From the NCBI RefSeq assembly GCF_000419525.1, contig NZ_ATTE01000001.1, positions 2,588,655 to 2,652,654 of the forward strand: a stretch of 64,000 nt of DNA. The letters are read 5' to 3'. Shown one piece after another: positions 42,787-51,707 of the stretch; the stretch's first letter is position 1; the number at the start of each line of letters is the position of its first letter. Origin of the DNA: Leucothrix mucor DSM 2157 (GTDB lineage Bacteria; Pseudomonadota; Gammaproteobacteria; Thiotrichales; Thiotrichaceae). A program made the translations under genes and the position numbers. The notes below the pieces were generated by a model. The model did no database searches, was not told where the DNA came from, and saw only the letters and a program-made list of their open reading frames with translations.

Positions 42787-42893
42787 AATTGCTCGCCTCG
42801 ACAGTGCCGCCATTTCGGGACACAATGAATAGAATGGATTGGTAATCAGTGTGCCAGCCCCAATGTCAATGGAACGTGAAGAAGGAAATAGTT

Positions 42894-44174
42894 TTGCAAG
42901 CCACCGGTATTCGTAACAAACTGATTCGCGTATTTATTGTGCAAATGCTGTTTATCAGCGTGATCACTGCTTTGGGTGTGTATGTGGCCGCGATTATTGT
43001 GGAACAAGTCATGATCCGCACTGCGCTGGAAAATGAGGCGATTCACTACTGGCAAGTCTCCGATCAAGACCCCAAACACCCCACGCCCAATACCGATAAC
43101 TTGCGTGGCTATCTGGCCAGCGATGGCGATTACAGTAAGGTGCCAGAGGTATTGCGAGCCATTGAACCGGGCTTTGGGCGCGCCGCCCTTAATGACCACG
43201 AACCGATTGTGTATGTCGAAGATCGTGGTACCAAACGCCTGTTTCTAATTTTCGATGAACAGAGCGTGCGCAAGCTCTCCTTTTACTTTGGCGTGGTGCC
43301 GCTCAGCTTAGCACTGATGGTGATTTATTTATCCGCTTGGTTTGCCTACCGCTCCTCACATAAAACGCTCTCGCCACTGATGTCACTGGCGCAAACCATG
43401 CGCAGTTTTGATCTCAGTAAAGACAAACTAGATTCCCTGCATTTGGATGATTACACCCAAACCGGCGTGGATGATGAAGTGCACGTACTCGCGGATTCAC
43501 TCAAAGAATTTACTCAACGACTCAAACGCCAGTTGCAACGCGAACGGGAATTTACCCATGATGTCAGCCATGAACTGCGCACCCCTTTAGCGGTAATTCG
43601 TGGCTCGCTGGAGATTCTCAATAAACAAGCAAACATCAACCCAATTCAGCAACGCGCCATCAACCGTATGCAAACTACCTCGGGCGATATGCTGTCGATT
43701 ATCGAGACCTTATTGGTACTGGCCCGAGATAGCGACACCTCAGAATCTCCCAGAGAAACCGTGCAGCTAAACCAACTAATGCCGACCATTATTAATCAGG
43801 TCAACAGCACCCATAATGCCGATAATCATGTGGTGATTGAGCTGCAGGATGGCGCTGAACTTGAAGTCTCAGCGCCAGTGCAAGCGGTGAGTATTGTATT
43901 GAGTAACCTATTGCGCAATGCCTGCAATTACACGCATGAAGGGCTGGTATCAGTGAAAATTGAAGCTGATAGTGTGAGTATTGGAGATAATGGCGAAGGC
44001 ATCGCTGCGGATGAGATCGAGCGAATTCAACAGCCGTTTCAACGAAGTAGTTCACAAGCTGATGGCTATGGGCTGGGATTAGATATTGTGCGCAGACTGT
44101 GTGAACGCTTTGGCTGGGAGCTGGATATTCGCAGTGAAGTTGGTAAAGGGACTGTAGTGCGGGTTCGGTTTTGA
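42894..44174 (+). CDS. Sensor histidine kinase without adjacent response regulator
   Basis: A protein of about 426 residues. One membrane helix at about 13-35 and a second at about 143-162 flank a periplasmic sensor region of roughly 105 residues. Then come a HAMP-like linker, the phospho-acceptor box FTHDVSHELRTPLAVIRGSL, and the HATPase domain with NLLRNACNYT, DNGEGI and GYGLGLDIVRR. I place the start at TTG 42894 because AAGAAGGA lies 7 bases upstream; the frame opens at GTG 42849 without such a site. No regulator gene adjoins it. It is divergent from the Cfa operon and is a candidate for its control. Confidence 0.88.
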   Translation: MQATGIRNKLIRVFIVQMLFISVITALGVYVAAIIVEQVMIRTALENEAIHYWQVSDQDPKHPTPNTDNLRGYLASDGDYSKVPEVLRAIEPGFGRAALNDHEPIVYVEDRGTKRLFLIFDEQSVRKLSFYFGVVPLSLALMVIYLSAWFAYRSSHKTLSPLMSLAQTMRSFDLSKDKLDSLHLDDYTQTGVDDEVHVLADSLKEFTQRLKRQLQREREFTHDVSHELRTPLAVIRGSLEILNKQANINPIQQRAINRMQTTSGDMLSIIETLLVLARDSDTSESPRETVQLNQLMPTIINQVNSTHNADNHVVIELQDGAELEVSAPVQAVSIVLSNLLRNACNYTHEGLVSVKIEADSVSIGDNGEGIAADEIERIQQPFQRSSSQADGYGLGLDIVRRLCERFGWELDIRSEVGKGTVVRVRF

Positions 44175-44320
44175 GCGCCTGCTCAGCAGTTTTTGTATAG
44201 ATAAACCAATAAAAATAGATTATCCCTACAAAATCTACTACCAGCGACCTCAAAGTCCGTGCTCACCAAAATGAGCCCAAACAACCGCTAGCCACAGACC
44301 CCAACGCCACACCCCACTAA

Positions 44321-44391
44321 GGGAAAAGTATTCCGCAGAATAAGAGCCTTCCGAGGAACGAGGCGAAGCGTTTATGCGGAATACTTTTCCC
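44321..44391. repeat. Long palindromic element, copy 1 (17-bp arms, 37-base core)
   Basis: GGGAAAAGTATTCCGCA (44321-44337) is the perfect inverse complement of TGCGGAATACTTTTCCC (44375-44391). The 37-base core between them matches the core of the copy at 51073-51137 in 33 of 37 positions. The arms of the two copies differ but stay fully paired. It lies between the lone kinase gene and the PepSY promoter. Confidence 0.85.
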
Positions 44392-44401
44392 GCCCCACAA
44401 C

Positions 44402-44455
44402 CTTACAAACCTGTAAACCCCACGCAATCCCCCTGTATACCCTCTCCCCTATAGT
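44402..44455 (+). promoter_or_regulatory. Promoter and operator of the PepSY gene (module copy 1)
   Basis: A palindromic operator CTTACAAACCTGTAAA (44402-44417), then CACGCAATC, CCCTGTATACCCTCTCC and a -10-like TATAGT (44450-44455). There is no good -35, which suggests activator dependence. Operator centre to -10 is 40.5 bp, identical to copy 2 at 45137-45190. Confidence 0.7.
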
Positions 44456-44507
44456 ACTCCCCATCAGGACAGTAAACGGCTGGCCTACTTAACCACCGGA
44501 GTACATC

Positions 44508-44888
44508 ATGAACAAAGCAACCATCGTCAGCACTTCAGCAATCGCCTTATTAATTGCAGGCCTGAGTTTCAATGCATTCGCCAGTTCAGGTGATAGAGAA
44601 GCCACCGCCGAAGCCCGAAAAAACGCCGCAATCTCCCTAACTCAAGCAATCAGCATTGCCGAGCAGGCCACCGGCGGCAAAAACGCCGAAGCAGAGTTTG
44701 AATTAGAAGATGGTGTTGCACTTTACGAAGTCGAAATTAAGATGCCAGACGGCTCGGAAGTTGATGTCGATGTTGATGCGACATCCGGTACCATTCTCGC
44801 TCAAAAAGCAGAGAAGGATAAGCACGATAAAGACTGCGATGATGATAAAAAACCTCACCATAAAGACAAGAATGACGGCAAAGCTTAA
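44508..44888 (+). CDS. Secreted PepSY-domain protein with acidic/His-rich tail
   Basis: A 126-residue protein with a signal peptide cleaved after about residue 25 (ALLIAGLSFNAFA), one PepSY domain (ISLTQAISIAEQATGGKNAEAEFELEDG in part, then YEVEIKMPDGSEVDVDVDATSG) and a tail of Asp, Lys and His (about 103-126, DKHDKDCDDDKKPHHKDKND). Such tails bind metal or cationic ligands. PepSY proteins next to two-component systems often modulate kinase sensing in the periplasm. Its promoter is a near copy of that of the regulator operon downstream, supporting a common regulon. Confidence 0.85.
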   Translation: MNKATIVSTSAIALLIAGLSFNAFASSGDREATAEARKNAAISLTQAISIAEQATGGKNAEAEFELEDGVALYEVEIKMPDGSEVDVDVDATSGTILAQKAEKDKHDKDCDDDKKPHHKDKNDGKA

Positions 44889-44918
44889 AGCAGTAGCTCA
44901 GAACTAAACCAAAAGGGG

Positions 44919-44959
44919 CCTGTCAGCGAAGTAAGTAAACACTGCTATTCAGTGACAGG
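44919..44959. terminator. Stem-loop downstream of the PepSY gene
   Basis: CCTGTCA (44919-44925) pairs with TGACAGG (44953-44959) around a 27-base spacer. It follows the PepSY stop by about 30 bp. There is no long T run, so it may only protect the 3' end. Confidence 0.4.
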
Positions 44960-45067
44960 TCTCAACTAATACAAGTATGGGCTGCACGTAAAAGTAAGAA
45001 GCACTCCACCAGTAAACAGTGCAAGCGAAATTCTGAATATATGATGTCTATTCGCTAAACACTGTTG

Positions 45068-45116
45068 GTCTTCAGAATAAATGCCGCCCAAGCAACGAGA
45101 CATTTATTCTGAAGAC
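45068..45116. repeat. Long palindromic element, copy 3 (degenerate core, 16-bp arms)
   Basis: GTCTTCAGAATAAATG (45068-45083) is the perfect inverse complement of CATTTATTCTGAAGAC (45101-45116). It keeps the CAGAATAA and GCC pieces of the other two copies but has a shortened 17-base loop. It lies before promoter module copy 2 just as copy 1 lies before module copy 1. Confidence 0.7.
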
Positions 45117-45136
45117 TTTTCCCTACCCTGCCCAAC

Positions 45137-45190
45137 TTTACAAAACTGTAAACTTCACGCAATCTCCCTGTATACCCTCTCCTCTATAGT
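45137..45190 (+). promoter_or_regulatory. Promoter and operator of the small membrane protein-regulator-kinase operon (module copy 2)
   Basis: A perfect palindrome TTTACAAAACTGTAAA (45137-45152), then CACGCAATC, CCCTGTATACCCTCTCC and TATAGT (45185-45190). The text between operator and -10 is almost the same as in copy 1 and the spacing is identical. The ribosome-binding region TGGAGTACAC before the ATG also matches copy 1. Confidence 0.7.
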
Positions 45191-45241
45191 ACTTCTCATA
45201 GGGATGGCACAAGGCCTTCCTCAACATAACTGGAGTACACA

Positions 45242-45451
45242 ATGAACAACTTCAAAAAAGCAGCACTAATGGCCCTTGGCACTATCGCAATGGGTTTGAT
45301 GATCTTTAGCTTCGCCACCATCGGCTTAGTGATTTTAGGGGTCGCAGCAACACTCACCGTAATCGGATTAATCGCCAGACCGTTTTTACCCAAAGGCCCT
45401 AGAAAGCCCGTTATAATAGATGTCACACCTATTTCATCAACCATCTCGTGA
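45242..45451 (+). CDS. Small two-helix membrane protein
   Basis: A 69-residue protein I cannot assign to a family. Residues about 7-30 and 30-47 are hydrophobic (MALGTIAMGLMIFSFATIGLVILGV in part), followed by a short Pro/Lys-rich tail (ARPFLPKGPRKP). The start has TGGAG upstream. It is the first gene of the operon with the response regulator, whose ATG is only 11 bp after its stop. A small membrane protein in this position may feed back on the kinase. Confidence 0.65.
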   Translation: MNNFKKAALMALGTIAMGLMIFSFATIGLVILGVAATLTVIGLIARPFLPKGPRKPVIIDVTPISSTIS

Positions 45452-45461
45452 CAGGCCTTGT

Positions 45462-46136
45462 ATGCATATATTGCTGGTAGAAGATGATCAAAAACTTGCT
45501 GACTACATAGAGCAAGGACTCCTAAACGCGGGGCATACTGTCGACCATATTACGGATGGCAGTATTGCCCTCGCCGCCAGCGTTACCGAGTCTTATGATG
45601 TCGGGATTATCGACCGCATGATTCCGGGTATTGATGGTTTATCGCTGGTTAAAGCCATGCGCGCAGCCAATCTCGCCCTACCGGTTTTATTCCTCACCTC
45701 ACTCGGTGGAGTCGATGATCGGGTTGATGGCCTGCAAGCTGGTGGTGATGATTACCTGACCAAGCCGTTTGCCTTTCCAGAGTTACTCGCTCGCGTTGCC
45801 GCATTAGGTCGACGCCCGCCAATCCAAGGCGAAGAACTCACCCTCAACTATGCCGATATCCATATGAATATCGCCGAGCGCAAAGTTACCCGCGCCGGAC
45901 AAGTCCTCGACTTACTGCCTAAAGAATACAAAATTCTGGAAATATTCCTGCGCAACCAAGGCCGCGTTGTCACCAAAAACATGCTGCTGGAGAAAGTCTG
46001 GGATATCCACTTCGACCCCAAAACCAGCGTGGTGGAAACCCACATCAGCCGCTTGCGCAATAAGCTCGAAAAGCCATTTGGCGATACCATCCTAAAAACC
46101 ATTCGCGGAGCCGGATACAAGCTGGAAGTCAGTTAA
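45462..46136 (+). CDS. OmpR/PhoB-family response regulator
   Basis: A regulator of about 224 residues. The receiver starts MHILLVEDDQKLADYIEQGL; the phospho-acceptor Asp is in IIDRMIPGIDGL and the Lys in LTKPFAFPELLARV. The C-terminal winged helix has LLPKEYKILEIFLRNQGRVVTKNMLLEKVW and THISRLRNKL (parts quoted). It lies 1 bp before its kinase. It is the obvious candidate to bind the TTTACA-N4-TGTAAA operators at 44402 and 45137. Confidence 0.93.
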   Translation: MHILLVEDDQKLADYIEQGLLNAGHTVDHITDGSIALAASVTESYDVGIIDRMIPGIDGLSLVKAMRAANLALPVLFLTSLGGVDDRVDGLQAGGDDYLTKPFAFPELLARVAALGRRPPIQGEELTLNYADIHMNIAERKVTRAGQVLDLLPKEYKILEIFLRNQGRVVTKNMLLEKVWDIHFDPKTSVVETHISRLRNKLEKPFGDTILKTIRGAGYKLEVS

Positions 46137-46137
46137 T

Positions 46138-47559
46138 ATGGCGCTTCCACCGCTCAGTGCTACCCTACGCCGCTATCGAGAAAACCTCACCCGTTCCAGC
46201 GCCATCCAGCAAGGCTTGCTCAACCTCAGCATCTTTTTAATTAGCTTGTTGCTGCTCTCAATCACGACCTATTTTTTCGTGCAAGATGCGCTCTCCAACC
46301 GTGCCGACAATGATCTTCGCCAACGCATGAGCGTGCTGCAAGAACGCCTCTCCGATGATGACTGGGAAGAGGAAGATGATGAAGGCGATTCACCCTATAA
46401 AAAACTCAACCAATCGATGCAAGGTGACGACTTCTTTCTGGTACTGACTGAATCTGATTTGGAGCTGGATAACAATAAAGCCTTTAGCCAAACCGGCTTA
46501 AGCACCCGCGTGTTAAAGCGCCGCAATACCTACCGCAGCGATAAAAACAAAGACACGCGCTACCGCATTTTGGTTGAAAAGCGTGATGGCATGGTCTTCG
46601 TCGTGGGCATTAATAACGACAATGATCAGGAGATTATTGAGATCGTGATGTCGGCGTTTATGCTGAATGCATTGATCGCGATGATTTTTACTGCCCTCCT
46701 CGTGATTTATCTCGCCAACCGCTCTCATCGACAAATCAGGCTTATTGAACATGTCCTCAATCACGCGGCTCAAGGCGATTTAAAACAACGCATCGGACCA
46801 TCAGACAAAAACAATGACCTTGGCCATGTCAGCGATCAAATCGATACCATGCTATCACGACTCGAAACCTCGATGACCGCCATGACCGATATCTCTGCCA
46901 ATATCGCACACGAATTAAAAACGCCGATTTCACGCTTGCGTCATGACCTGATCACCGCACTCGATCAGCACGAACAAGGCAAAGATGTCGAGGCTGCGCT
47001 GAATGACGCCTACGAGGAAACCGGCTATATCACTGAAACCTTTGACGCGCTGTTACGCATTGCACAGATTGAAGGCGGCGCACGACGGGCAAACTTTACC
47101 TCGCTGAATTTACAGTCAGTGATTGAAACGGTGTTGGATATTTATATTGAAGTTGCTGAAGATGCGGGAATGACATTGCAGTTAGCCGCCCCATCAACAG
47201 CGCAATCCAATAAGCCAGTTATGATCCAAGGCGACAAGGAATTGCTAGTGCAAATGCTGGCAAACCTGATTGAAAATGCCATTCGTTATTGCCCTGAAGG
47301 TACGACAATTTCAGTTGAATGCGTCGAGCGCAATGGGCGCATTCAACTCAGTGTTGCGGATAATGGCGCAGGAATTCCGGAAGCGGAGCGCGAGCAAGTG
47401 TTTCAACGGCTATATCGGGTTGATAAAAGCCGCAGTGACAAACGTGGCACGGGGCTTGGCTTGTCACTGGTTAAAGCCATTATCGAGCTGCATCATGCGA
47501 CCATTACACTGGAAGATAACAAGCCGGGCTTACGTGCGGTTATACTGTTCACGCCGTAG
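46138..47559 (+). CDS. Sensor histidine kinase, partner of the 45462 regulator
   Basis: A 473-residue kinase with membrane helices at about 28-50 and 178-199. The periplasmic region between them begins with a strongly acidic patch (DDDWEEEDDEGDS, about residues 79-91). A HAMP linker precedes the phospho-acceptor box ISANIAHELKTPISRLRHD, and the ATPase domain has NLIENAIRYC, DNGAGI and GTGLGLSLVKA. An acidic periplasmic patch suggests sensing of divalent cations or cationic molecules, as in PhoQ. Its last 30 bp overlap the convergent GlxA-type gene. Confidence 0.92.
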   Translation: MALPPLSATLRRYRENLTRSSAIQQGLLNLSIFLISLLLLSITTYFFVQDALSNRADNDLRQRMSVLQERLSDDDWEEEDDEGDSPYKKLNQSMQGDDFFLVLTESDLELDNNKAFSQTGLSTRVLKRRNTYRSDKNKDTRYRILVEKRDGMVFVVGINNDNDQEIIEIVMSAFMLNALIAMIFTALLVIYLANRSHRQIRLIEHVLNHAAQGDLKQRIGPSDKNNDLGHVSDQIDTMLSRLETSMTAMTDISANIAHELKTPISRLRHDLITALDQHEQGKDVEAALNDAYEETGYITETFDALLRIAQIEGGARRANFTSLNLQSVIETVLDIYIEVAEDAGMTLQLAAPSTAQSNKPVMIQGDKELLVQMLANLIENAIRYCPEGTTISVECVERNGRIQLSVADNGAGIPEAEREQVFQRLYRVDKSRSDKRGTGLGLSLVKAIIELHHATITLEDNKPGLRAVILFTP

Positions 47560-48501
47560 CTCACTCGGGCTTTGCCCATAAACGGCTCTGAAACATTTAG
47601 CAAAATAACTCTGCGAGCTAAAGCCCGTTGTCTGTGCAATGGTGCTAAATGGAAGGCGCGTTTCTTCAACCATTTTTTTGGCATGCGCTAAGCGTAATTT
47701 CAGATAGTAATAACCCGGTGGCATCCCCTCATGACGACGAAATACATTTTCTAAAGTGCGCGTGGTTGTGCCAATTTTATTCGCCAGTCGCGCGATTGAA
47801 TAAGGCTGCTCTATATTGCCTTCCATAACCTCGACCGCAGCCCCCAGCGTTTCTGATTTCATCCGTAAACGCAGGTAGCGAATGCTCCGGTGCATTTCTG
47901 TTTCGCTACGCATTCTATCCTGCAAAAACTGCTCAGAAACACGCGCCGAAAAGTCATAGCCATGATCTCTGGCGATCATATATAACACCATGTCCAGTGC
48001 CGAGATCCCGCCGGCACAACTGAGAATATCCTGATTAACGGTAAAGAAGTTTTCTTGCAGCACAGTACTGGGGTACAACTCCTGAAATGCCGCTCTTTGC
48101 TCATAGGCAAGCGTGCAACCAAGGCTATCCAACAGGCCTGCTCTGGCCAAAATAAAACTGCCACTAGACAGGGCCGCTAATCGGCAATGCTTCCGGTGTA
48201 ACTGAGAGAGCTTCCTAAACACAGGGCTATTTTGATACAGCGCAGCCTGTCGAAAGGCGCAGACAAATAGCGTCGTGCAATCCAGCGTCGCTTCAGAGAA
48301 AAACTGCTGTGTTTGCACCGAGATCTGATTAGAGCTCAGCACCGTATCCGAGCTGATATCCCCGCTGTATAACGTCAGCTCATACAAGGGCGAGTTGCTC
48401 AACGTGTTAGCGACAGTTAAGGCCTCGACTGCCAATGAAAAAGACGTGAGCGCGAACCCCGGAATTAACAGAAAACCGACGCGCTGTACCTGGCTATTCA
48501 T
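47530..48501 (-). CDS. GlxA-type transcriptional regulator (DJ-1/PfpI plus AraC HTH)
   Basis: A 323-residue regulator. The N-terminal DJ-1/PfpI-like ligand domain (about 5-180: VGFLLIPGFALTSFSLAVEALTVANTLS in part; LAALSSGSFILARAGLLDS) is followed by an AraC-type double helix-turn-helix ending FSSQSYFAKCFRAVYGQSPSELR. Relatives control catabolism of choline derivatives, carnitine and arginine. Divergent from the 2-oxoglutarate oxygenase gene 126 bp away, which is its likely target. Confidence 0.9.
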   Translation of the reverse strand: MNSQVQRVGFLLIPGFALTSFSLAVEALTVANTLSNSPLYELTLYSGDISSDTVLSSNQISVQTQQFFSEATLDCTTLFVCAFRQAALYQNSPVFRKLSQLHRKHCRLAALSSGSFILARAGLLDSLGCTLAYEQRAAFQELYPSTVLQENFFTVNQDILSCAGGISALDMVLYMIARDHGYDFSARVSEQFLQDRMRSETEMHRSIRYLRLRMKSETLGAAVEVMEGNIEQPYSIARLANKIGTTTRTLENVFRRHEGMPPGYYYLKLRLAHAKKMVEETRLPFSTIAQTTGFSSQSYFAKCFRAVYGQSPSELRREQYNRT

Positions 48502-48627
48502 CCACTTTCCCTACCTGCTTATCAATCATACGCATTGGTCATCATTGTTTTCGCATTTGTTATAGCAGCCATAGCCCGATCCTCACAGAATAGTTTGCTC
48601 TGAAACCTCACTGACACCAAACCGACT

Positions 48628-49626
48628 ATGAATATACCAGCACCTGCTACGCGTGAATTAGCCAGTCAGAGCCTCTCGTTTGACAGAATTCCAATTGTTG
48701 ATATCGGTCCTTTACTCAATGGTAGCAACCCTCAGCAAGTTGCCAGAGAGATCGGTGATATTTGTGAAAACATCGGATTTCTCTACATCAAGAATCATGG
48801 CATTAGCGAGCAATTAATCAACGATGCTTACACCCAAGCTGAGGCGTTTTTTGCCTTACCTCAAGCCGAAAAAGACAAATTAAACATCGTAAACTCAGGC
48901 CCGACGCTGCGTGGCTACATCCCCATTTACGGTGAAAACGTCGACCCTAAATTTACCAAGGATTTTAAAGAATGTTTTGATCTTGGCAAGCACGAAGACG
49001 CTGTCAGTCCGTTTTTTGGTCCTAACTTGATGCCGGAGCAGCCTGCAAAATTCACTGAAGTATTTGAAGCCTATCATGAAGCCATGATGGCATTGGCAAC
49101 ACAACTAGTCAGCGCCATTGCCCTTAGCCTTGGTTTGCCTGCTGACTACTTTGCCAAGCGCCAACAAAAGCCCATTACCATACAACGCCTGCTGCACTAT
49201 CCACCACAACAAGGCGATATATCCGTTAAAGAAATCGGCGTGGGTGCGCATACTGATTACGGTTTTCTAACCATTTTGGCACAGGATGATAAAGGCGGTT
49301 TGCAGGTACAAAACCGTGAAGGCGAATGGGTCAATGCACCACCGGTGCCGGGTACTTTTATTGTTAATATTGGTGACTTGGTGCAAACACTCACGAATGA
49401 CCGCTATATCTCCACCATGCACCGCGTGATTAATACCAGCGGGCAAGAGCGCTACTCCTTACCTTTCTTTTTAGATATGGATTTTGATGCGGTTGTTGGG
49501 CCAGTACCTACCTGCATCAAGTTTGGGGAGCCGGCAAAATACGCGCCGTATCGTTGTGGAGAGCACAAGTATCAACGCTTTGTGAATAGCTATGAGCACT
49601 TACAAAAGGCAGCACTCATCGCATAA
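48628..49626 (+). CDS. 2-oxoglutarate/Fe(II)-dependent oxygenase (isopenicillin-N-synthase-like)
   Basis: A 332-residue enzyme of the IPNS/DIOX-N family. The N-terminal part has IPIVDIGPLL, ENIGFLYIKNHGI and RGYIPIYGENVDP. The iron ligands are His and Asp in GAHTDYGFLTIL and the distal His in TMHRVIN; the co-substrate Arg is in RYSLPFF. It hydroxylates or desaturates a small organic molecule. The divergent GlxA-type regulator suggests a catabolic substrate. The exact substrate cannot be read from the sequence. Confidence 0.9.
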   Translation: MNIPAPATRELASQSLSFDRIPIVDIGPLLNGSNPQQVAREIGDICENIGFLYIKNHGISEQLINDAYTQAEAFFALPQAEKDKLNIVNSGPTLRGYIPIYGENVDPKFTKDFKECFDLGKHEDAVSPFFGPNLMPEQPAKFTEVFEAYHEAMMALATQLVSAIALSLGLPADYFAKRQQKPITIQRLLHYPPQQGDISVKEIGVGAHTDYGFLTILAQDDKGGLQVQNREGEWVNAPPVPGTFIVNIGDLVQTLTNDRYISTMHRVINTSGQERYSLPFFLDMDFDAVVGPVPTCIKFGEPAKYAPYRCGEHKYQRFVNSYEHLQKAALIA

Positions 49627-49641
49627 GCGTTTAAATTAAAA

Positions 49642-49679
49642 CCAATCCGCCGTGCAACTCATTCGCCACGGCGGATTGG
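49642..49679. terminator. Strong stem-loop after the oxygenase gene
   Basis: CCAATCCGCCGTG and CACGGCGGATTGG form a perfect 13-bp stem with a 12-base loop. There is no T tract, so it may be a rho-dependent or mRNA-stabilising structure between convergent genes. Confidence 0.5.
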
Positions 49680-49710
49680 ACAGACTTGTCTAGTGTACGG
49701 GGCTGAAGTG

Positions 49711-50046
49711 CTAAGCGCACTCCCCTTCAGTGTAGCTTCTCACCTTAGGATCGCTACACGCCGAGCAACTATTTGAATACGTCTTTTTCTTCATCATAAT
49801 CACCGCAGGACAGGCCATACCCGGTTTGCAGACAGGCGCTTCCGCAACATTCCCGCAGACAGGCAGGTATTGCATGGTACACATTTCAGGGCGTGGGTCC
49901 TTGCATTGAGTCACAACTGGTGTGCTTTCTTCTGGTGGTACAATGCCTATGGGCTCTTCAGGAGCAGGCTTTGTCGCACCCATGCATGAGACTAAAAAGC
50001 CTGCCACCACTGCCATTAAAATAGTTTGCCAAATGTGTTTCTTCAT
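49711..50046 (-). CDS. Lipoprotein with Kazal-like cysteine domain
   Basis: A 111-residue predicted lipoprotein (lipobox around LVSC, residue 21). The mature part has a Pro/Glu-rich linker, then seven further cysteines with the pattern C-x7-C-x7-C ... KTYSNSCSACSD ... GEC. MQYLPVCGN followed by TYSNSCSA is the signature of Kazal-type serine protease inhibitor domains, here with an insertion (VAEAPVCKPGMACPAVIM) between PVCG and the TYSN block. A protease-inhibiting or protective function at the outer membrane is inferred. Confidence 0.75.
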   Translation of the reverse strand: MKKHIWQTILMAVVAGFLVSCMGATKPAPEEPIGIVPPEESTPVVTQCKDPRPEMCTMQYLPVCGNVAEAPVCKPGMACPAVIMMKKKTYSNSCSACSDPKVRSYTEGECA

Positions 50047-50143
50047 ACCTGTCTCCTTATTTGATTAACAACGCTAAAAGCCACCAAAGGCCTTATCGCA
50101 TGTTAACCAGTAAGGTGAAAAAGATACACTGCTTAATTTAACC

Positions 50144-50521
50144 TCAATACTCCACCGCCTCAAACTCAATCCCATGCAAATGAAAGTAAAAACGCCGTCC
50201 TGGTGCAGTATCATTCTCATTATGAATAGCAATATTTGAGTTCAGCACCATTTGTTTTATCTCATCTAAATCATCCACAACAACCCCAATATGATTCATT
50301 GCACGATCAGATAAGTAAGGCTCCACCGGCTCTCCCGTCAATTTCGGCGGCGTGTAAAGCGCCAAATAAGAATGCTCACTCCCCACGTGTACGGTATAAC
50401 CATTATCTTTAGAATCACCCTGCCAGCGAACCTTCCAACCCAGCAGCTCACACAACGCTTGCGCCAGCTCAATAGGCTTTTCCACTGTAATATTTAAATG
50501 TTCCACTATTGCTGCTTTCAT
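50144..50521 (-). CDS. VOC-family (glyoxalase/bleomycin-resistance fold) protein
   Basis: A 125-residue vicinal-oxygen-chelate protein. It begins VEHLNITVEKPIELAQALCELLGW and ends HLHGIEFEAVEY (parts quoted), with NHIGVVVDDLDEI starting the second half. The metal-ligand positions His9, His78 (NHIG) and Glu near the end are compatible with a metal site. It could be a lyase, dioxygenase or drug-sequestering protein. A SoxR-type promoter lies immediately upstream, so it should be induced by redox-active compounds. Confidence 0.85.
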   Translation of the reverse strand: MKAAIVEHLNITVEKPIELAQALCELLGWKVRWQGDSKDNGYTVHVGSEHSYLALYTPPKLTGEPVEPYLSDRAMNHIGVVVDDLDEIKQMVLNSNIAIHNENDTAPGRRFYFHLHGIEFEAVEY

Positions 50522-50553
50522 CGCTTTTCTCCGTTTGTTAAGTCAATGGTGGT

Positions 50554-50584
50554 AGCATGAAACCTCAAGTTAACTTTAGATCAA
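50554..50584 (-). promoter_or_regulatory. SoxR-dependent promoter with sox box, facing the VOC gene
   Basis: CCTCAAGTTAACTTTAGA (50563-50580) matches the E. coli sox box in 16 of 18 positions. On the minus strand TTGATC (-35) and CATGCT (-10) are separated by exactly 19 bp, the over-long spacer used by SoxR and other MerR-type activators. The predicted start is some 15-25 bp before the VOC ATG. Confidence 0.85.
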
Positions 50585-50591
50585 GGCTTTT

Positions 50592-51092
50592 ATGGCATAT
50601 CGTGGAAATGAATTTATCGCTATCGGGAAACTAGCCGAACGTACCGGCGTCGCGGTATCGGCATTACGGTTTTATGAGGAAAAAGGACTGGTCAAAGCCC
50701 TACGCAGCAGTAGCGGCCATCGACAATTCAAACGCTCAGATATTCGCCGCATATCATTTGTACTGGCCGCACAGAAGCTAGGCTTCACACTGCCAGAAAT
50801 ACGCGAACAACTAGATAGCCTGCCCGATGCAAGAACACCGACCAAAGCCGATTGGGAAAAATTAAGCAGGAAATTTAAAGCAGAAATCGAGCAACGTATC
50901 GCAGGCTTGGAACAACTACGAGATACACTAGACTCGTGTATCGGCTGCGGCTGCCTATCACTACAAAAGTGTCGCCTATACAACCCCGATGATCAAGCCG
51001 CAGAACTAGGAGCCGGCCCCAGATATCTAAAAGGAAACACCCCACCCTCTCAGACAACATACCAAAGTAGGCCAAAGCATCCCGCAGAATAA
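50592..51092 (+). CDS. soxR: Redox-sensing MerR-family activator SoxR
   Basis: A 166-residue regulator (E. coli SoxR has 154). The MerR helix-turn-helix (IGKLAERTGVAVSALRFYEEKGL) is followed by a dimerisation helix and the [2Fe-2S] ligands in CIGCGCLSLQKC, the invariant SoxR CxxCxCx5C set. It activates promoters when its cluster is oxidised by redox-cycling compounds. soxS is not adjacent, as expected outside enterics. The final codons and the stop (TAA at 51090-51092) lie inside a palindromic element, so the last few residues (PKHPAE) are element-derived. Confidence 0.93.
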   Translation: MAYRGNEFIAIGKLAERTGVAVSALRFYEEKGLVKALRSSSGHRQFKRSDIRRISFVLAAQKLGFTLPEIREQLDSLPDARTPTKADWEKLSRKFKAEIEQRIAGLEQLRDTLDSCIGCGCLSLQKCRLYNPDDQAAELGAGPRYLKGNTPPSQTTYQSRPKHPAE

Positions 51093-51137
51093 GCGCCTTC
51101 CGACGCAGGAGGCGAAGCGTTTATGCGGGATGCTTTG
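51073..51137. repeat. Long palindromic element, copy 2 (14-bp arms, 37-base core)
   Basis: CAAAGCATCCCGCA (51073-51086) is the perfect inverse complement of TGCGGGATGCTTTG (51124-51137). The 37-base core is 33/37 identical to that of copy 1. Relative to copy 1, two T:A pairs of the stem are changed to C:G on both arms. It covers the soxR stop codon and lies between convergent genes, so it may act as a bidirectional transcription end. Confidence 0.85.
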
Positions 51138-51155
51138 ACCGAAACTAGGAAGTGA

Positions 51156-51707
51156 TTACTTCTTAGCCCAAGCAAACTGCTTGAATGCATCATCAACTGG
51201 CGTTTCAGCAATGTGATTCACATAGTTGCTCATCACTTTCTGAGACAAGCCCAAAATGATTTCCAGCAACTGACGCTCACCATAACCGGCCGCGTAAAAC
51301 GCTTTAATTTCTTCCTGAGTCAAGTTACCACGGCTGCGAACCATCGCCAGAGTCGTGTCATGCAGTGCCTGCAACTTCTCAGTTGGCATTGGCTCGCTGT
51401 TTCTCAGCGCTTCAGTCAGTGCTGGATCAACTTTCATTGAATGCGCGATACCAGTATGAGCCGGTACGCAGTAATGGCACTCGTGCTCAACGTTAATCGT
51501 CTGCCATACCACCGTCAGCTCTTCTGCATCAAACGATGAGTTTGCAAATAACTCATGCAGTACTTGGTAGCCTTCCAGCAAGCCAGGTGCGCTCGCCATT
51601 ACGCCATGCAGGCCAGGAATCATGCCATAGGCTTTGAATGATTTTTCCAGAAACGGCTTGCTCTCTGCGGGTGTTGTCTCTAAATCATGAATGGTAAAAG
51701 TAGTCAT
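51156..51707 (-). CDS. AhpD-like/carboxymuconolactone decarboxylase-family protein
   Basis: A 183-residue AhpD-fold protein. The redox-type motif ECHYCVPAHTGIA gives the E-x-x-C-x-x-C-x3-H proton-relay set of alkylhydroperoxidase AhpD. The remainder is helical and typical of the family. It probably reduces peroxides or quinone-like compounds, though many members are uncharacterised. It converges on soxR, and its upstream region has two GAAC-N4-GTTC operators, suggesting control by a TetR-type repressor encoded elsewhere. Confidence 0.85.
   Translation of the reverse strand: MTTFTIHDLETTPAESKPFLEKSFKAYGMIPGLHGVMASAPGLLEGYQVLHELFANSSFDAEELTVVWQTINVEHECHYCVPAHTGIAHSMKVDPALTEALRNSEPMPTEKLQALHDTTLAMVRSRGNLTQEEIKAFYAAGYGERQLLEIILGLSQKVMSNYVNHIAETPVDDAFKQFAWAKK

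Follow-up and report, generated by a model that had tools for sequence, protein, structure and literature searches.

A Leucothrix family of dispersed hairpin elements with a conserved core and covarying arms

GTAG-tagged REPs, which are recognised, and cleaved as single strands, by RAYT (TnpA_REP) enzymes, are intergenic hairpins dispersed in both orientations, and their stems vary in a complementary manner within and between families (Di Nocera 2013, PMC3733652; NAR 2021, PMC8266576). The Leucothrix family described here shares these properties, as well as an enrichment of GTAG and AAGTA at one foot. It differs in having stems of mostly 16–24 bp (5–13 bp in GTAG-REPs) and a centre of 24–79 nt (against loops of 2–20 nt; PMC3733652), and in carrying the GTAG tag in about a quarter of its copies rather than in >90%. 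The tags are a minority far above chance (GTAG in 7/31 copies, AAGTA in 8/31), the genome holds only 11 copies, a low number for a REP, and it encodes neither a RAYT nor any other Y1 transposase. A preliminary description, made from the sequence alone, had likened the hairpins to REP-type or non-autonomous mobile elements; the resemblance stands (dispersed, intergenic, in both orientations, genus-restricted, variably present at syntenic sites, with an AAGTA/GTAG foot), but the family falls outside the REPs proper on tag frequency, size and transposase.

CGTC-tagged REPs are likewise hairpin repeats without a dedicated transposase, but have 8–9-bp stems and 4–5-nt loops (PMC3733652), and the Leucothrix feet carry no CGTC tag. 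Repetitive hairpin-forming elements of sponge mitochondria are also small, dispersed and intergenic, with an unknown mover; their stems are conserved and their loops vary (PMC2800124). The Leucothrix family does the opposite of these comparable repeats: unlike REPs and mitochondrial hairpin repeats, it varies most in the sequence of its stem.

Integron attC sites, too, form hairpins whose boxes are conserved and whose paired stems are otherwise free in sequence, but their boxes lie at the ends, whereas those of the Leucothrix element lie inside; the element also has no R-box consensus, and the genome has no integron integrase above the curated cut-off. MITEs resemble the family as small non-coding dispersed units with inverted ends. 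The ends of MITEs keep their sequence across copies, whereas the outer arms of the Leucothrix element do not (median identity about 0.44–0.5, compared with ~0.89 for the core), so that shared conserved terminal inverted repeats are missing; no parent element was found for the family, and no target duplication could be read in the diverged intergenic flanks of two empty sites. Literature searches in open-licence papers found no account of it.

Hairpins in the window

The window, a stretch of 64,000 nucleotides of the genome of the filamentous marine bacterium Leucothrix mucor DSM 2157, contains two clear copies, A and B (Table 1). Both palindromes of the preliminary description are present where it had placed them. 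Copy A (44321–44391) has a 17-nt arm on either side of its 37-nt core, and 17/17 arm pairs form. Copy B has the same dimensions and is slightly longer than described (51070–51140 instead of 51073–51137); in it, 16 of 17 pairs form and one is an A–C mismatch. Both are predicted to fold strongly as RNA (z about –7). Between the two cores, 4 of the 37 positions are different, bearing out the 33/37 identity first reported, and the T/C arm differences said to have changed on both strands are real paired changes. The core pattern has two matches in the window and none in 100 shuffles. When 16-bp arms around a 37-nt spacer were scored at every window position, copy A reached 16/16 and copy B 15/16, the next best position giving 13/16.

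Table 1. Coordinates of the hairpins, their parts and the neighbouring genes in the window
Feature	Position	Strand	Remarks
Copy A, full unit with conserved feet	44312..44400	+	R2 model match, 88.1 bits, E 1.6e-23
Copy A left arm GGGAAAAGTATTCCGCA	44321..44337	+	pairs 17/17 with 44375-44391
Copy A core, 37 nt	44338..44374	+	33/37 identity with copy B core; core pattern in 0 shuffles
Copy A right arm TGCGGAATACTTTTCCC	44375..44391	+	
Copy B, full unit with conserved feet	51061..51149	+	R2 model match, 90.6 bits, E 2.9e-24
GTAG, copy B left foot, REP-like tag	51067..51070	+	last base is first arm base; over-represented at left feet across the family
Copy B left arm GGCCAAAGCATCCCGCA	51070..51086	+	pairs 16/17 with 51124-51140
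Copy B core, 37 nt	51087..51123	+	MerR gene takes its in-frame stop from the GAATAA here
Copy B right arm TGCGGGATGCTTTGACC	51124..51140	+	
Diverged relative of copy A ('third copy')	45068..45116	+	perfect 16-bp arms, 17-nt loop; in paralogous copy of copy A's downstream region
Histidine kinase gene, upstream of copy A	42849..44174	+	Pfam HisKA, HATPase_c
PepSY-domain gene, downstream of copy A	44508..44888	+	Pfam PepSY
MerR-family regulator gene, 3' end inside copy B	50592..51092	+	Pfam MerR_1, MerR-DNA-bind
Convergent gene adjoining copy B, AhpD-like by eye	51156..51707	-	no Pfam match

The perfect inverted repeat at 45068–45116 had been taken for a degenerate third copy. Its flank is indeed paralogous to that of copy A, with which it aligns through the promoter region and the start codon of the next gene, but it scores just 16.4 bits in the covariance model and is no clear member by itself. 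The best interpretation is a relative that has diverged from copy A and was carried along when the region upstream of the PepSY gene was duplicated, its former left box now being paired into the stem. The paralogous promoter regions, at 44392–44510 and 45117–45244 (AAACTGTAAAC..CCTGTATACCCTCTCC..CTATAGTAC), lie in front of the PepSY gene and of the small gene after it, respectively.

Distribution and anatomy of the family

A search of the 5.19-Mb genome with the core only, blind to the arms, returned 11 convincing copies (A to K), and a covariance-model search returned the identical set; the further copies that the preliminary description had expected from such searches are therefore there. 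Paired arms of ~15 bp or more flank the core in 11/11. The family is present in 6/7 Leucothrix genomes and in 0/56 other genomes of the taxonomic family, a restriction to Leucothrix in the genomes searched; the viral contigs, phages and plasmids searched gave no match. Two weak model matches in draft genomes (G005:C51 and G001:C378) are real copies, and a third locus (L176, G004:C143) is a copy with degraded arms and an intact core; there, an ABC ATPase gene directly follows livM, and livK is missing. Searching with the left box (up to two mismatches) recovered the known copies and a few hits without paired arms; neither an extended autonomous version carrying a gene between the boxes nor separated element halves turned up.

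The element is a Leucothrix-specific, non-coding, dispersed hairpin of ~75–125 nt, built from unpaired conserved feet, a stem of largely free sequence, asymmetric conserved boxes (AATAAGCGCCTTMCGAC / GGAGGCGAAGCGTTT) and an apex, which is short in this genome and in relatives frequently a nested hairpin (for example GTTTAATGG..CCATTAAAC). The feet follow the consensus ..CAnAA.A on the left and GMCMCC on the C-rich right, with A at –1 in 25/31 copies and G at +1 in 24/31, and their positional information of ~1.0 compares with a 99.9% null of 0.41. Among the 31 left feet, 8 contain AAGTA (0.26 expected) and 7 contain GTAG (0.61 expected). Core identity between copies in this genome has a median near 0.89. 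Several inner core pairs are frequently broken in a 20-copy alignment, so the core appears to be constrained by sequence more than by pairing. At three loci (L030, which is copy D, and L174 and L175 of G001), a second right half (GCGTTT followed by the right arm) lies 7–9 nt downstream of the hairpin; in copy D it is this distal half, not the proximal, that gives the better match to the left arm.

Covariation and renewal of the arms

Covariation was scored over 16 register-locked arm pairs in 20 copies. All 16 pairs show both-sided changes in some copy, and the foot-adjacent pair is formed in 20/20. Double-changed cells number 106, against 31 in shuffles, and 90% of cells are paired, against 66%; the covariation score is 0.611, compared with 0.170 for shuffled arms and at most 0.165 for slid controls. 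Copies from relatives were gathered with a model that expects paired arms, and their covariation is therefore partly selected, whereas the 11 genome copies are free of that effect. The arms vary with pairing preserved, as had been proposed. With additional copies in existence and arm variation compensated, the initial observation has survived on both of the points by which it was to be judged. Mismatches comprise 23 G–T and 14 A–C against 703 Watson–Crick pairs; the two counts do not differ clearly and do not separate constraint at the DNA level from constraint at the RNA level.

Despite an identity between copies of mostly 0.3–0.75, the arms hold 9.66 bits of positional information, against 1.76 with each arm shuffled; for the copies of this genome by themselves, picked regardless of arms, the values are 12.8 and 3.3. 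The arms belong to the element, since they keep this weak positional consensus and are enclosed by conserved unpaired feet.

Comparison of the same site in different species shows that the long paired arms have been rewritten in concert on their two sides. In front of the PepSY gene, this genome and a relative (G003) both carry the element and have the right flank in common; 7 of 17 arm pairs carry two-sided changes, and no pair carries a one-sided change. Between livM and livK, where both genomes again carry the element, a middle arm block has been replaced and both arms show a matched 1-bp length change. The block changes and the matched length change lead us to infer that arm-to-arm template switching during replication probably renews the arms. 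Template switching has been proposed as a source of multibase compensatory change in RNA genes (PMC8794818). A slower mode, dominated by one-sided changes, is seen between G005 (L045) and G001 (L059), with one double change and four one-sided changes, and the related units H, I and J, within 10 kb of one another, display T–G, A–C and A–A intermediates; ordinary stepwise compensation could account for part of the arm data. With such both-sided rewriting at one site, the family can serve to test whether compensation in hairpins proceeds stepwise or by template switching (PMC8794818).

The PepSY-site element of G003 is split across two contigs (the end of L058 on G003:C30 and the start of L108 on G003:C17). 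The broken ends lie inside the element and carry matching inverted CCTAAAATnCTCAGTT sequence as well as a TTTAT repeat, pointing to an insertion sequence within the core. At a pair of apparently orthologous loci, the arms grow from ~22 bp in L178 (G001:C173) to >40 bp in L179 (G004:C227) by mirrored flank; L053 and L179 of G004, near a contig end and possibly an assembly artefact, were left out of the arm comparisons.

Mobility, gene context and alternative readings

Spread of the element is supported by the occurrence of one core at unrelated loci, by the common arm consensus and feet, and by its absence from two syntenic sites (those of copies E and G) in G002. At these empty sites no clean junction or target duplication is readable, the intergenic DNA of the available species being too diverged. 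No transposition event was seen directly. The RAYT-type transposase for which the preliminary description had proposed a check was not found: a search with Y1_Tnp (PF01797, covering RAYT and IS200 relatives) gave no match in this genome, which is 100% complete in two contigs, and none in five other Leucothrix genomes, some of them incomplete (6/7 in all). The exception, G003, encodes three near-identical IS200-like Y1 transposases of 149 aa, with no element copy nearby.

We favour, with moderate confidence, a REP-like Leucothrix element that is constrained in hairpin shape, core and feet and whose arms are renewed through stepwise compensation and probably also template switching. The complete unit, with its arms, would be copied to intergenic sites; the arm consensus, the feet and the related H, I and J copies support this. 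After copying, the arms would drift without losing their pairing, in part by way of single mismatches compensated afterwards, of which intermediates are seen, and probably also through arm-to-arm switching in replication. The element would most likely be recognised as a folded hairpin by its shape, core and feet, as REPs are by RAYT enzymes; since the genome lacks a Y1 transposase, the mobilising enzyme would be lost or unknown here. The family offers a test case for the persistence of hairpin repeats without a RAYT gene in the genome. A stronger form of this reading seems unlikely to us: a non-RAYT enzyme would recognise the mobile hairpin by shape, core and feet alone, leaving its 16–24-bp arms open to rewriting, and intra-hairpin template switching would time and again replace arm blocks on both sides simultaneously, the family acting as a natural recorder of this process.

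Gene contexts were assigned from open reading frames in 3-kb stretches. The 11 copies are intergenic, copy B overlapping the last codons of the MerR gene, and occur in both orientations. Copies A, E, F, G and I lie between codirectional genes, B, C, D and H between convergent genes, and J and K between divergent ones. The initial suggestion that the hairpins end transcription on both strands is plausible for copy A and the third copy, which have an A-run and a T-run at their feet and alone approach an intrinsic terminator (a stem followed by a T-run); most copies lack the T-run and two of the eleven lie between divergent genes, so bidirectional termination is possible for some copies and is not a family trait. 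That the hairpins serve mainly as bidirectional terminators or mRNA 3'-end stabilisers, the core being a recognition site for a protein or RNase and the arms needing only to pair, we consider improbable. The predicted RNA folds of five copies are stable (–34 to –43 kcal/mol, z –6.8 to –8.2) and four copies sit between convergent genes, as such a role would lead one to expect, but orientation to genes is mixed, and a near-identical core at unrelated loci requires a copying step anyway. A terminator scan gave similar numbers of hits in the region and in shuffles (11 against 8.6), although it accepts loops of 3–8 nt only, to which the full hairpins are invisible. A cis-acting structured RNA, either a leader or an sRNA, with a conserved internal loop and a free stem is more doubtful still. 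Families of that kind typically combine an asymmetric conserved core with a covarying stem, and relatives have the apical nested hairpin; against this, the copies lie in both orientations to genes that share no function, Rfam 15 gives no match in the window above any family's gathering threshold, and G–T mismatches are about as rare as A–C.

A short mobile core might have inserted into resident palindromes or terminator hairpins, the arms then being target sequence; the arms of E, G, D and K do look unrelated at first sight, and a small 7-bp hairpin lies at the E site of G002. This is very improbable, being disfavoured by the strong positional consensus of the arms and their place inside conserved feet; in addition, the arms differ between two species at one site, and the G site of G002 has no such palindrome. 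We reject solitary attC-like sites for an integron integrase, to which we give hardly any credence: integron integrases occur in three Leucothrix genomes, yet this genome has 11 copies and no integrase above cut-off, the topology is reversed (conserved inside and variable outside), and the feet consensus lacks the RYYYAAC/GTTRRRY R-box pair. The integrases of the three genomes (L180, L181 and one on G006:C44) all score above the curated cut-off.
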